64,000 nt of DNA from Bdellovibrio sp. NC01 (GTDB lineage Bacteria > Bdellovibrionota > Bdellovibrionia > Bdellovibrionales > Bdellovibrionaceae). Positions within the stretch are counted from its first letter, which is position 1. Every line of letters starts with the position of its first letter. The notes beneath the pieces were generated by a model, which was given only the letters and a program-made list of their open reading frames with translations, searched no databases and had not been told where the DNA came from. The translations under genes were made by a program, and so were the position numbers. The DNA is taken from assembly GCF_006874625.1 (NCBI RefSeq), contig NZ_CP030034.1, forward strand, positions 434,001-498,000, given 5' to 3'. Shown here piece by piece: positions 6,539-55,991 of the stretch.

Positions 6539-6577
6539 CTGAGTTTCAAGGATCGAAACTCAGTAAATCTTCAAGGA
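6539..6577 (+). promoter_or_regulatory. Flagellin leader: GGA-loop hairpin plus second GGA motif at the Shine-Dalgarno
   Basis: CTGAGTTTC (6539-6547) and GAAACTCAG (6555-6563) form a perfect 9-bp stem with the loop AAGGATC. The octamer TTCAAGGA spans stem and loop (6545-6552) and recurs at 6570-6577, where it is part of the Shine-Dalgarno AAGGAGGAGG just before the ATG at 6587. A GGA in a hairpin loop plus a second GGA over the ribosome-binding site is the arrangement bound by CsrA in other flagellin leaders. Binding here is inferred. Confidence 0.45.
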
Positions 6578-6586
6578 GGAGGAATT

Positions 6587-7435
6587 ATGGGTTTACGTAT
6601 TAACACGAATACAGCTTCGTTGAACGCACAAAGAGTTTTGTGGGGCACGAAGATTGGTCTTGATAAGAGCATGGAAAAGCTTGCATCAGGATTCCGTATT
6701 AACCGCGCTGGTGACGATGCTGCCGGTCTAGCGATCTCTGAGAATTTGAAAGCTCAAGTTCGCGGTCTAAAACAAGCGTCACGCAATGCTCAAGACGGTA
6801 TCTCTCTAGTCCAAGTGGCAGAGGGTTCAATGAATGAGATCTCTTCGATCTTAATCCGTTTGAGAGAGTTGTCTGTACAAGCAGCTTCTGACACTGTCGG
6901 ACCGACTGAGCGTCAGTTCCTAAACGTAGAGTATGATCAACTAGTATCAGAGATCGACCGTATCTCCGAAGGTACAGAGTTCAACGGAACTCAACTTTTG
7001 GCAGGAACTGGTTCTATCTTGGACTTCCAAGTTGGTACTAGAAATAATCCAGAAATCGACCGTATCTCTTTCGACGCATCAAAAGCAGACGCTAACTCTG
7101 CAGCACTTGGTGTAAACTTGACGTCAGTAGCAGATAAAGCTTCAGCACAAAATGCTCTAGCAGCTATCGACCAAGCGATCGTAAGTGTCTCTGCAATGCG
7201 TGCAGACTTCGGTGCGATCCAAAATCGTCTTCAATCAACTGTTTCGAACATTCAAGTATCGGTTGAGAATATGTCTGCTGCTAACTCTCGTATCAGAGAC
7301 GTAGACGTAGCTGAAGAGACTTCAGAAATGACTAGAAATAATATCTTGTTGCAAGCAGGTACTAGCGTACTAGCACAAGCGAACCAACAAGCTAACGTAG
7401 CACTTGGACTCTTGAACAAATCTTTCCAAGGTTAG
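6587..7435 (+). CDS. fliC: Flagellin
   Basis: A 282-residue flagellin, the subunit of the flagellar filament, exported through the flagellar type III apparatus. It starts with the conserved 'MGLRINTN..SLNAQR' and carries the D0/D1 signature 'SGFRINRAGDDAAGLAISENL' region (about residues 34-54) and 'RELSVQAASDT' (about 94-104). It ends with the conserved C-terminal helix 'NSRIRDVDVAEETSEMTRNNILLQAGTSVLAQANQ'-type segment. Short length means the variable D2/D3 domains are absent. The strong Shine-Dalgarno AAGGAGGAGGAATT sets the start. A second flagellin follows on the same strand. Bdellovibrio genomes encode several flagellins; which numbered paralogue this is cannot be decided here. Confidence 0.97.
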   Translation: MGLRINTNTASLNAQRVLWGTKIGLDKSMEKLASGFRINRAGDDAAGLAISENLKAQVRGLKQASRNAQDGISLVQVAEGSMNEISSILIRLRELSVQAASDTVGPTERQFLNVEYDQLVSEIDRISEGTEFNGTQLLAGTGSILDFQVGTRNNPEIDRISFDASKADANSAALGVNLTSVADKASAQNALAAIDQAIVSVSAMRADFGAIQNRLQSTVSNIQVSVENMSAANSRIRDVDVAEETSEMTRNNILLQAGTSVLAQANQQANVALGLLNKSFQG

Positions 7436-7820: not shown

Positions 7821-7906
7821 TAGCGGAGCTTCTTCGCAAGCATCCACATTATTAATTTAACAGGTGCACGGATCGCGCCTTATGCCAATGGATGGCAACA
7901 CTTCAC

Positions 7907-7936
7907 GGAGGAAGAAACTTATGCACGGAGGATAGA
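7907..7936 (+). promoter_or_regulatory. Flagellin 2 leader with duplicated CACGGAGGA and a four-codon mini-ORF
   Basis: Two copies of CACGGAGGA lie 17 nt apart. The first is a Shine-Dalgarno for ATG 7921, which opens the mini-ORF ATG-CAC-GGA-GGA-TAG (7921-7935). The second copy is inside that mini-ORF and is the Shine-Dalgarno for the flagellin ATG at 7937, one base after the mini-ORF stop. The arrangement suggests translational coupling or occlusion of both sites by a GGA-binding regulator. Confidence 0.5.
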
Positions 7937-16338: not shown

Positions 16339-17050
16339 CCTTATTATCTAAAGACTATCACTCAACTGATTTACAGCGATAGAAAATAAACGGCTCAAGC
16401 GAATCTCGAAGAGTATTTCTTTATGAATTCTTAAGATCTCGCGATCCGACAAAACTTGGCCACATCAATATATAGAGAGACTTTTCACTCGCAGAATTTA
16501 TATCCCGAAATTCGTGGTACGCGTTCGTCTTGTTAAATATTCATTCAATATTTCGGGGGAGCGAGCAGCTTTTAAAATTCATGAGAGTTCGAAATCTAAG
16601 ACGAAGGTCTAGGTTTTTGCGTCTCTTTTTACACGTGAGCTGGACTATGATCTAGTGCGGCAGCTCTAATTTGAAATCAAGCGTCATTGGGGACAAAAGC
16701 TTAAAAAAGAGGCGTAAAGAAAATGAAAATGAAGTGCGAAAAATTCGCACTTATCCACATGTGACATTTTCGTCGCGATCGTCATGAAATGTGCTCCAGT
16801 AGCGGATTTCATCGGCAGGACCTTGCAAAAGTTAAGCGCACACATCTCAAAGAAACATAAAAATTTTTGTGCGAAAAAATGGCGTGAGAAGTGAATTGCT
16901 TTTTTGAAGTTTTTTGATGGAGCAGTTTGGGCTTCAACATTTTTGTTGTTGATCTCGCACTGGACCCTCATTAGCATTTTTTGTGTAACGAATTACAAAC
17001 TTTAATGGATTTAAAGTAATTAGATTGCAACGAAACGAAAGGATGCAACA
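16339..17050. other. 712-nt intergenic region, rnr / outer-membrane protein
   Basis: No convincing gene. A 97-codon frame at 16684-16977 (minus) has Cys/His/Phe-rich unbiased composition and no Shine-Dalgarno. The region must contain divergent promoters for rnr and for the barrel protein at 17051. Structure seen: a perfect 9-bp inverted repeat AAGTGCGAA–AAA–TTCGCACTT at 16732-16752, a CAACA/TGTTG repeat near 16936, and an AGACG/CGTCT pair followed by TTTTT near 16600-16630. AT-rich sequence precedes the barrel-protein start, with a ribosome site GAAAGGATGCAACA. Confidence 0.5.
16732..16752. repeat. Perfect inverted repeat, operator or hairpin candidate
   Basis: Arms AAGTGCGAA and TTCGCACTT (9 bp each, no mismatch) are separated by AAA. 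The dyad lies about 300 nt upstream of the highly expressed barrel-protein gene. It could be an operator, or a stem in a leader RNA. Confidence 0.4.
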
Positions 17051-18181
17051 ATGAAACAACTATTGGTATTGGCAGCATTGTCAATGGCAGCAGCTCCAGC
17101 GATGGCTTCTAAAGCTCGCTTGAATTCTCTAGGTAACGCAGCTCACTTGATCGATACTCAAACGATCTTCGTAAACCCAGCTGACATGAACTACACTGGC
17201 GATTTCGCGACTCTTGAGTTCGGTTCTACTAACGGAACAACTTACTCTTGGGACGGTACATCTGTCGTTACTAACACAAGCCCTAAAGCTGAAGGTGGTT
17301 TCGTAAGAACTACTTCTTTCGGTAAAGTTGGTGCGTACCTTGGTCACCGCAATGACACTACGACTTCATTCATCGATGGCGTGAATCAGGCAGCTTTGGC
17401 TTCTGCAGCTCACACTAACGTATTGTTGACTGAGCAAAATCCTCTAGATCTTTTCTACGGAACAGATTTCAGCGGTATGAAATTCGGTGCTGAAGTTCAC
17501 TACTCTAATTCTAAAAATGAAACGGCTACATTCACTCAAAAACAAAACACTTTGGGTCTTTCAGCTGGTCTTCGTACTGACGTTTGGAATGCATACGCAC
17601 GCGTTGGTTTGATGGGTAAAACTGAAAATGATCTAGCTGGTGTTGGCGCTCCTGAGTTGGAAGCTAAAGGCCTTTACAAAGTAGGCGGCGGTTACTGGTT
17701 TGATTCTATCTATGCATTCGCTAACTACGAATACGCAAAAGGTACAGCGTCTTCAACTTTGACTGGTGATAACGATATTTCTAAAAATGCTTGGGAAATC
17801 GGTATGGTTAACAACCATAAAGTAGAAGGCGGAAACTTCTTCTACGGTATCAGCTACCTTTCAAACGAAGTTAAACAAGAACCAGCTTCAGGCTCAGTAA
17901 AAACAACTCAATCAGGTCTTCCATTGGTTGTTGGTATGGAATTGGATGCAGCTTCTTGGTTGACTCTTCGCGGTTCTGTTAAACAAACAGTTATCGTTGG
18001 CGAAAACAAAAACGAATCTGCTAACACTAAATCAAACCTTACAAACGACACTGTTGTTGCAGCTGGTGCTGGTTTGAAATGGGGCAAAATCGAACTTGAT
18101 GGTTCACTTGCTGGTTCAACTTCAGGCGACGTAAACGGCAACACTTTGTTGGCTGACGTAGCTCTTACTTACAACTTCTAA
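17051..18181 (+). CDS. Major outer-membrane beta-barrel protein
   Basis: 376 residues with a clear signal peptide (cleavage after 'AMA-SK'). The mature protein alternates hydrophobic and polar residues with many Gly and aromatic residues, and ends in the barrel signature '..ADVALTYNF' with a terminal Phe. The codon choice is strikingly uniform, as in abundant proteins, unlike flanking genes. This and the long upstream region suggest a major outer-membrane protein. No specific porin family is obvious; the early 'NPADMNYTGDFATLEFG' pattern resembles surface-exposed long-chain transporter-like or uncharacterised barrel proteins. A strong terminator follows. Confidence 0.8.
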   Translation: MKQLLVLAALSMAAAPAMASKARLNSLGNAAHLIDTQTIFVNPADMNYTGDFATLEFGSTNGTTYSWDGTSVVTNTSPKAEGGFVRTTSFGKVGAYLGHRNDTTTSFIDGVNQAALASAAHTNVLLTEQNPLDLFYGTDFSGMKFGAEVHYSNSKNETATFTQKQNTLGLSAGLRTDVWNAYARVGLMGKTENDLAGVGAPELEAKGLYKVGGGYWFDSIYAFANYEYAKGTASSTLTGDNDISKNAWEIGMVNNHKVEGGNFFYGISYLSNEVKQEPASGSVKTTQSGLPLVVGMELDAASWLTLRGSVKQTVIVGENKNESANTKSNLTNDTVVAAGAGLKWGKIELDGSLAGSTSGDVNGNTLLADVALTYNF

Positions 18182-53856: not shown

Positions 53857-54002
53857 CTAAGAATACCCCAAACAGTTTAGTTCTTCGGCGAACACCGAAG
53901 TAAGGACACGAAATCCCAAGGTTTTTAACCCTTAGAGACTACCAAATTCAAGGTCTATTGACGAGTATAGCCGCGGCAATCGCGTCGAGAGTCCAGCCCG
54001 AA

Positions 54003-54087
54003 GGTGTCTGTCGTTTTTTTGGGTCTACACCGCAGCGAAAACTTAAGATTAATGACGCACTGTAGACCCAAAATAACGACAGACACC
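54003..54087. mobile_element. REP/MITE-like inverted repeat, 85 nt
   Basis: A 27-nt arm beginning GGTGTCTGTCG (54003-54029) is repeated inverted at 54061-54087 with a single mismatch; a 31-nt unrelated loop lies between. Ends with GGTGTCTGTC are typical of REP-like palindromes mobilised by RAYT/IS200-type transposases in many bacteria. No transposase is nearby, so it would be non-autonomous. Confidence 0.6.
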
Positions 54088-54105
54088 CCTGAGTTTCCCA
54101 AAAAG

Positions 54106-54134
54106 AAAAAGGGAGGCTTTTGGCCTCCCTTTTT
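54106..54134 (-). terminator. Intrinsic terminator of barrel-protein gene
   Basis: AAAAAGGGAGGC–TTTTG–GCCTCCCTTTTT, a 12-bp stem including the A/T flanks; works for the minus-strand gene ending at 54158. Confidence 0.9.
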
Positions 54135-54157
54135 GAGTTGTGCTTTGGTTTTCTTGA

Positions 54158-55255
54158 TTATTTCAAGAAGTCGCCCAAAAGGCGTGTACCAACTACGATC
54201 TCTTGGCGAGTTTTCGTGTTGTCAGCGTCTTCAGTCGTGTAGTTGTAAGCTACGTGGTAACGGAAGATGTCGTCTTTACGTGGTTTGTACTCAAGAACCG
54301 CGCCGTAACCCATTGTTTTGTTTGTACCAGCGATTGAACCGTTAGATGCAACGTCGATCTCTTGGTTGTCGCTTGTAACTTCAAGACGTGGAGTCCAGTT
54401 TTCCCAGCCAGTGTAAGCAGCTTTGAATACGAAAGTAGTCAATTTATCAGTGCCTGCTTCGTATTCAGCATTTTGGCCCAAGTAGTCCAATTGCAACAAG
54501 ATAGGATTTGAATCCCATTTCAAACCAACAGCCCACAAACCAGTTTTGTCGTCAGCCATTGATGCAGCAGTTGTGAATGCACCAGTGTTTGTACCGCCAA
54601 GTTGGTGGTAAGAAGCCATTACGCCGAAAGCTTTATCAGCAAATGCACCTTGGTAAACGAAACCATATGCGTTTGTAGAGTTTTGGTCGAAACCAGAAGC
54701 AGCACCATTGTTAGATTGGTCTTGCGCTGGATTGAATGCCATCAAACCGATAGTTTGAGTGCCATCACCGAAAGAGTACTCAGCTCTTGCACCAGTCATA
54801 TATAGAATGTTCGCCGCACCAGTATTGTACAGGTGACCAGCGCCGCTCAATGAAGACGCATAAGATTGAGAAGTTAGGTACAAGTCTGCGCCAGAAGTAG
54901 CAGCTTCGAAGCCACCGATTTGCGACGCCATTTTACCCAAAGTGATGCTGAAGCCTGAACCCAATTTTTGAGTCAAGTAAGCCAATTGCACTTGAGTGTT
55001 AACATTGTCACGAGTCGTGTAAGTTGGCGTGCTGTAGAAGCCCCAACGTAGACGGTATGACAAATCTTCATTCAAGTTTCCTTTAAAATCGATACGACCG
55101 ATTTTGAAATAGAACTTGTTTGTGTCAGGTTTCGCCGCTTCTTCATTGAAATCTAGTGACTGGAAATCACCACGGAAATCATAGCTGATGCTGCCAGCGT
55201 GTGCTGTCGCAGCAAGCGTTGTCGTTGCTAAAGTTGCCATCAAAAACTTTTTCAT
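54158..55255 (-). CDS. Porin-like outer-membrane beta-barrel protein
   Basis: 365 residues from ATG 55255, which opens a good signal peptide (cleavage near 'AHA-GSI'); the frame is open upstream to 55420 but that part is not protein-like. The mature sequence has porin O/P-type features: 'FKIGRIDFKGNLNEDLSYRLRWGF', 'LAYLTQKLGSGFSITLGKMA' and 'GYGAVLEYKPRKDDIFRYHVAYNYT'. Codon use is biased as in abundant proteins. The leader carries two copies of a CsrA-like site (next feature), suggesting post-transcriptional control. Substrate not predictable. Confidence 0.85.
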   Translation of the reverse strand: MKKFLMATLATTTLAATAHAGSISYDFRGDFQSLDFNEEAAKPDTNKFYFKIGRIDFKGNLNEDLSYRLRWGFYSTPTYTTRDNVNTQVQLAYLTQKLGSGFSITLGKMASQIGGFEAATSGADLYLTSQSYASSLSGAGHLYNTGAANILYMTGARAEYSFGDGTQTIGLMAFNPAQDQSNNGAASGFDQNSTNAYGFVYQGAFADKAFGVMASYHQLGGTNTGAFTTAASMADDKTGLWAVGLKWDSNPILLQLDYLGQNAEYEAGTDKLTTFVFKAAYTGWENWTPRLEVTSDNQEIDVASNGSIAGTNKTMGYGAVLEYKPRKDDIFRYHVAYNYTTEDADNTKTRQEIVVGTRLLGDFLK

Positions 55256-55257
55256 TC

Positions 55258-55323
55258 CTACATCCTTGGTTAAAGTTTTATGGGTGTTAATTTGTATATT
55301 GAAAATAATGCTACATCCTTGGT
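55258..55323 (-). promoter_or_regulatory. Barrel-protein leader with duplicated ACCAAGGATGTAG
   Basis: On the mRNA strand the 13-mer ACCAAGGATGTAG occurs at 55311-55323 and again at 55258-55270, directly ahead of the ATG at 55255, so the second copy covers the Shine-Dalgarno. AAGGAUGU matches the core of the CsrA consensus (ARGGAUGU). Each copy also contains AUG-UAG, a start immediately followed by a stop. Confidence 0.5.
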
Positions 55324-55604
55324 CGGTATCCAACAACGCATTCTTTTTTGTGTCGCTTGGCTTATAAATTTTTAGTTTTGCGTTTTGAGCGAGTCCGTGA
55401 ATCAAGAATAATTTGTCCAAGCTTCAAGACGACGCTGAAATATTCGAAGAGTTAAGAAGAACACGAATCAAATCATGACAATAGAATCGTTGCTTAGATA
55501 AAAAGGTTTTGTTGAGATAAATGATTTTTGCGTTTTTGCACTAATTTGGTGAACAAAACAGTTTCGCGAAAATAGAAAAATAAAAACAGTCGAGAGAGTT
55601 GGTG

Positions 55605-55632: not shown

Positions 55633-55669
55633 AAAAGAATGAAGGAGCTTTAAGCTTCTTCATTCTTTT
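55633..55669 (-). terminator. Terminator hairpin with the stop codon in its loop
   Basis: A 17-bp inverted repeat with one mismatch (55633-55649 / 55653-55669). The three-base loop 55650-55652 is exactly the UAA stop of the rhodanese-like gene; the 5' arm encodes its last residues. On the minus strand the hairpin ends in TTTT. Confidence 0.75.
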
Positions 55670-55991
55670 CTTTTTGAATACCGATGAAACCACCGCGCAC
55701 ATAGTGAGCGTTGAGGAAGCCCGCTGCTTCTAACTCATCCGCGATTTTCTTAGAGCGCGAACCGTCTTGATCAAGAACGACAATCGCAAAGTGCGGAGGA
55801 AGTTTTTTCGCTTTAATAGCACCGACATAGTCTTCGTTTTCAACTTCAACTGTGACGGCAGCAATGTGCATCGCTTCGACACTTTTGTACCAAACGCTAA
55901 GATCCACCCCAAGGTTGATCAACATGAACGGCACACGACCGCGAACTAAATTATCGAATTGAAAATAACCAATTTGTGCAACGTCGATCAT
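55650..55991 (-). CDS. Rhodanese-like protein lacking catalytic Cys
   Basis: 113 residues, one rhodanese domain. 'PFMLINLG' replaces the first strand and the active-site loop reads 'VVLDQDGSRSKKIADEL', with Asp74 where the catalytic Cys belongs; 'HYVRGGFIGI' is the usual last strand and turn. There is no Cys at all in the protein. A binding rather than sulfur-transfer function is inferred. It starts 7 nt after the MFS gene and is co-transcribed with it. Confidence 0.82.
   Translation of the reverse strand: MIDVAQIGYFQFDNLVRGRVPFMLINLGVDLSVWYKSVEAMHIAAVTVEVENEDYVGAIKAKKLPPHFAIVVLDQDGSRSKKIADELEAAGFLNAHYVRGGFIGIQKEKNEEA

Follow-up and report, generated by a model that had tools for sequence, protein, structure and literature searches.

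High-affinity sites for the RNA-binding regulator CsrA present a GGA in a hairpin loop, and SELEX ligands have given the consensus RUACARGGAUGU, whose ACA and GGA do not vary (PMC7652899). The E. coli glgC leader, a case of two-site repression by CsrA, carries one GGA in a hairpin and a second in the Shine-Dalgarno (SD) sequence (PMC7652899). The flagellin genes hag of B. subtilis and flaA of Campylobacter are under CsrA-FliW control (PMC7652899, PMC4894983). Our literature search found no paper on CsrA in Bdellovibrio.

We analyzed a 64-kb stretch of Bdellovibrio DNA, hereafter the window, which corresponds to positions 434001-498000 of a complete genome of 3.98 Mb. Background frequencies were estimated from a sample of ~10% of the genome (464 kb) and from 313-314 sampled starts. 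A preliminary description of the window had drawn attention to two identical 13-mers 53 nt apart in the leader of a porin-like gene. Both exact copies of ACCAAGGATGTAG were located on the minus strand, at 55258-55270 and 55311-55323, with a start-to-start distance of 53 nt. The features of this locus are as follows.

54158-55255, minus strand: outer-membrane porin ORF of 365 aa, with signal peptide MKKFLMATLATTTLAATAHA and Pfam family PF07396 (Porin_O_P).
55256-55301, minus strand: predicted 5' untranslated region of ~45 nt, its start placed from the position of the -10 element; contains the downstream 13-mer copy only.
55258-55270, minus strand: downstream 13-mer copy, which is the SD region, with AAGGA 12 to 8 nt before the ATG.
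55308-55313, minus strand: putative -10 element TAGCAT; most orthologs have TAnCAT, with a nearly invariant CAT.
55311-55323, minus strand: upstream 13-mer copy, mostly within the putative promoter spacer, with its terminal TAG in the -10 element; kept in no relative.
55331-55336, minus strand: putative -35 element TTGTTG, with 17 nt between it and the -10 element.
55633-55669, strand not assigned: terminator-like hairpin of 17 pairs that separates the porin gene from the minus-strand gene upstream of it (55650-55991).

The porin ORF, which starts with an ATG at 55255, matched PF07396 with an E value of 6e-13, exceeding the curated cut-off, and homologs were present in 23 of the 23 genus relatives searched. 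We first assumed that it was PopA/Bd0427; this assignment was rejected, since the solved PopA structures 9GA1 and 9GF0 (PMC12228718) correspond to the ORF at 17051-18178 rather than to that at 54158-55255. An Rfam scan of the window gave no family reaching its gathering score. The weak matches near 54002-54179, to microRNA and sRNA models, were set aside as due to chance; the stretch at 54002-54090 (minus strand), just 3' of the porin gene, had microRNA matches far below the gathering score and is probably a long terminator-like hairpin.

Apart from the porin-leader pair, the 64-kb window contained no 13-mer that was repeated exactly within 60 nt. Among 60 first-order Markov versions of the window, three contained at least one such pair (~5%; mean, 0.12 pairs), and the repeat could therefore have arisen by chance. 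The surprise attached to the pair is weak at best: the repeat is real and unusual for one leader, and it is within chance expectation once the whole window is scanned. A third exact copy of the 13-mer elsewhere in the 3.98-Mb genome was rejected; it sits within an unrelated coding-like region, on the opposite strand. The preliminary description had suggested a genome-wide search for a regulon marked by AAGGATGT pairs; this search returned just one pair with a gap of ≤70 nt in 3.98 Mb, leaving the proposed regulon without further members of this kind.

The downstream copy overlaps the SD sequence of the porin gene, as had been proposed, and in 20 of 20 aligned genus leaders an AAGGA starts 11-13 nt ahead of the ATG. 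Because AAGGA is itself the SD sequence, overlap of one GGA site with it is not diagnostic of a regulator. Each copy was also said to create an AUG-UAG start-stop. ATGTAG is indeed present in both copies in the window, but it is not conserved: relatives read ATGTAC, AAGTAA, ACGTAG or ACATTT at this position. In the same region, a conserved AAAACTTT before the SD sequence (55272-55279, minus strand) is complementary to a conserved AAAAAGTTTT at the porin coding start (55243-55252, minus strand), a pairing that would place the SD sequence and the ATG in a loop; its stability did not exceed that of shuffles. A candidate hairpin formed by AAAACTTT and AAAGTTTT around the SD sequence was rejected; its letters are conserved, yet its stability was no better than that of shuffled sequences (z +0.9).

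The surroundings of the upstream copy were examined in an unconstrained MAFFT alignment of 20 genus porin leaders. Two blocks, TTGTTG and TAGCAT/TAACAT/TACCAT, were conserved 17 nt apart with no gap between them. The invariant columns were T30, T33, and T34 of TTGTTG and A57 and T58 of CAT, and A54 and C56 were kept in at least 90% of the 20 leaders. The spacer, which holds AAGGATG in the window, was variable across the 20 leaders, and the AAGGA at positions 46-50 (numbered on the window's row) was not conserved. The upstream copy, and with it a second AAGGATGT, was absent from 22 of 22 relatives compared; in the closest of them, whose porin protein is 59% identical, the spacer reads GCTCAGGAACTTGGCTG and is unrelated to the upstream copy. 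A two-box score at 17-nt spacing, defined after the alignment had been seen, reached 13-17 of 17 in 20 of 23 leaders, with means of 15.2 for real and 10.5 for shuffled leaders. The gene for the PopA homolog is preceded by TTGATC and, 17 nt further on, by the same -10 word, TAGCAT.

From their conservation and spacing, the two blocks are most likely a sigma-70-like promoter, TTGTTG-N17-TAGCAT, and it is from these boxes that we infer the start site. Agreement of the porin boxes with the E. coli consensus is no more than moderate, and they were not called by a generic promoter scan. TTG-N20-TAnnAT was just slightly commoner at 17-nt spacing in the sampled intergenic regions, and cases of TTG-N20-TAnCAT in the 464-kb sample were too few to assess genome-wide enrichment. 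A start-site map of attack-phase cells placed FliA-type promoters at two thirds of 140 start sites and had no motif like that of the porin (PMC3627812). If 55308-55313 is the -10 box, transcription is expected to start near 55297-55303 and to give an mRNA with one 13-mer copy. The upstream copy lies upstream of this predicted transcript and thus could not be a CsrA site. A longer minor porin transcript may exist; the terminator-like hairpin at 55633-55669 makes read-through transcripts that contain both 13-mers less likely.

The repeat is very probably a coincidence between two signals of the porin gene that are ordinary and unrelated, a promoter and an SD sequence. The upstream copy would fill part of the 17-nt spacer and supply the first three bases of the -10 element. 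Transcription would start ~10 nt downstream of that copy, so that the mRNA carries just one. The porin gene would then have its own promoter and a ~45-nt leader, and its translation would rely on an ordinary AAGGA site. The repeat as such would have no role. This reading builds on the observed conservation and spacing of the blocks, the absence of the upstream copy from relatives, and the lack of hairpin context around the GGAs.

The preliminary description had instead explained the pair by two-site CsrA repression, with both copies in the mRNA, a CsrA dimer bridging and looping them, and the ribosome blocked. It had named absence of CsrA as an outcome that would count against this model. The genome does encode csrA, between flgL and fliW in the order flgL-csrA-fliW (75 aa; E 8.5e-26; L4 and R44 present), so the model cannot be dismissed on that ground. 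It also draws on the downstream copy, AACCAAGGAUGU, which fits 10 of the 12 positions of the SELEX consensus RUACARGGAUGU (PMC7652899), and on the fact that bridged leaders with one site over the SD sequence are a known CsrA mode. A CsrA with R44 and a site overlapping the SD sequence are, however, the only elements of such a system found here. Conserved promoter boxes flank the upstream copy, which itself is not conserved; this leaves one GGA within the predicted transcribed leader where two would be needed, and the 22 relatives do not share both sites. Even if the upstream GGA were transcribed, its probability of lying in a small hairpin loop was 0.0, against 0.31-0.39 for the SD GGA; an ANGGAN hairpin-loop GGA was not found in the porin leader, the SD GGA had a loop probability below 0.14 in most relatives, and the leader folded no better than its shuffles. 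The window also reads CCA where SELEX ligands always have ACA. With the upstream copy in promoter DNA, absent from relatives, and neither GGA in a stable hairpin loop, looping by CsrA as a block to porin translation is highly improbable.

CsrA might act at the downstream copy alone, in competition with the ribosome. Several relatives read AAACAAGGATGT there, matching 11 of 12 consensus positions including ACA and GGA; the flanks of AAGGA are conserved beyond what an SD sequence needs, and ACAAGGATG is rare elsewhere, occurring at none of 313 other starts sampled. The GGA is nevertheless part of any AAGGA SD sequence, where conservation is expected anyway, hairpin presentation is absent in most relatives, and the following bases differ, with GGACAT in one subclade and GGAAGT or GGACGT in others. 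We regard single-site control as unlikely, and any effect of CsrA at the porin SD sequence may be of a weak single-site kind. Somewhat less likely still is that the conserved upstream blocks form an operator for a DNA-binding regulator, instead of or besides promoter boxes. Conservation does reach TTGTTGGC and an ACA stretch upstream, beyond the needs of a core promoter, but the 17-nt spacing and the TA..AT match suit a core promoter, and under either reading the upstream copy would act as DNA and not as leader RNA. A promoter and an SD sequence that happen to share 13 letters thus remain our preferred explanation of the repeat.

The two flagellin leaders of the window, 48 kb from the porin gene, provide a positive contrast, with conserved GGA hairpins. 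The flagellin genes start at 6587 (flagellin-1) and 7937 (flagellin-2), and their leaders contain the following hairpins.

6539-6563, plus strand: flagellin-1 leader hairpin CTGAGTTTC-AAGGATC-GAAACTCAG, with GGA in the loop and compensatory changes.
6568-6583, plus strand: flagellin-1 SD hairpin TCTTC-AAGGAG-GAGGA, with an ANGGAN loop; invariant.
7862-7880, plus strand: flagellin-2 leader hairpin AGGTGC-ACGGATC-GCGCCT, with GGA in the loop and compensatory changes.
7883-7897, plus strand: second hairpin of the flagellin-2 leader, TGCCA-ATGGA-TGGCA, which has a loop GGA.

For flagellin-1, the GGA loop probability was 0.998 in the leader hairpin and 0.94 in the SD hairpin, and just one of 200 shuffles folded equally well. 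Across 21 distinct flagellin-1 sequences, 98.6% of pair cells hold, and double-sided changes were seen in eight cells; shuffles gave 2.5 such cells, and slid controls gave none. Both loop probabilities of flagellin-2 were 0.99, 98% of its pair cells were formed, and the compensatory stem AGACGC/GCGTCT occurred in two distinct sequences. Loop GGAs of the flagellin leaders were invariant throughout the genus; covariation was modest because most stem pairs are invariant. Near the flagellin-2 start, after the GGA-loop hairpins, lie two CACGGAGG words (7904-7911 and 7924-7931), and these words, like the hairpins, are almost unchanged across the genus. The leaders at 6587 and 7937 share the traits of the hag/flaA type, namely loop GGAs together with an SD GGA, stems with compensatory changes, and csrA and fliW encoded together in the genome. 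Judged by sequence and predicted folding, both look like strong CsrA-type leaders, to which CsrA would bind as a repressor. The preliminary description had placed the porin and both flagellins in one regulon of abundant surface proteins; its flagellin part agrees with these leaders and with csrA lying by fliW, whereas the porin of the window's species is an unlikely member.

Porin orthologs of some relatives have leaders of another kind. In three of them (L022, L027, and L028), the hairpin CGTTA-ACGGACA-TAACG lies within a longer predicted 5' untranslated region, with a loop GGA probability of 0.97-0.98 and the GGA 45-47 nt before the porin start; the SD GGA (GGACAT) is also in a loop, with a probability of 0.71-0.80. 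A fourth (L023) has a GGA at -45 in a larger loop. In all four, the upstream GGA inside the 5' untranslated region differs from the window's upstream copy. L022, L027, and L028 are closely related, so their hairpin may represent one event. An automatic scan for GGA hairpins matched 11 of 314 sampled starts, several of them inside neighbouring coding sequence, and a lone hairpin match is therefore weak evidence. Since three species have a two-GGA hairpin leader, CsrA may control the porin elsewhere in the genus. Separately, upstream of the PopA/Bd0427 homolog (ORF 17051-18178; PDB 9GA1, E 4e-48), ACTTTAATGGATTTAAAGT at 16999-17017 (plus strand) forms a hairpin with its loop GGA 44 nt before the start, and about half of its relatives retain the ATGGAT loop. 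It is conceivable, and in our judgment rather doubtful, that the reach of CsrA-FliW in Bdellovibrio extends past flagellin to other surface proteins, with the porin a target in part of the genus through a hairpin that was gained or lost, and with at most an SD site in the window's species.

Compared with known systems, the porin leader is most like a sigma-70-type promoter followed by an SD leader, which it resembles in its TTG...-N17-TAnnAT spacing, its predicted leader of ~45 nt, and an AAGGA 7 nt before the ATG. It departs from that type in that its -35 TTGTTG and -10 TAGCAT are partial matches to the consensus, with the start predicted from them. With the E. coli glgC leader it shares one GGA over the SD sequence, but the second porin site lies outside the predicted mRNA and outside a hairpin loop. 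The glgC architecture is found instead in the flagellin leaders of the window. GGA pairs upstream of starts thus say little unless the transcript boundary and the hairpin context are taken into account, and the conserved GGA hairpins of the flagellin leaders allow a direct test of whether CsrA-FliW controls flagellin in a bacterial predator. These flagellin leaders, together with csrA-fliW, resemble B. subtilis hag and Campylobacter flaA, a likeness that covers the flagellins and not the porin.
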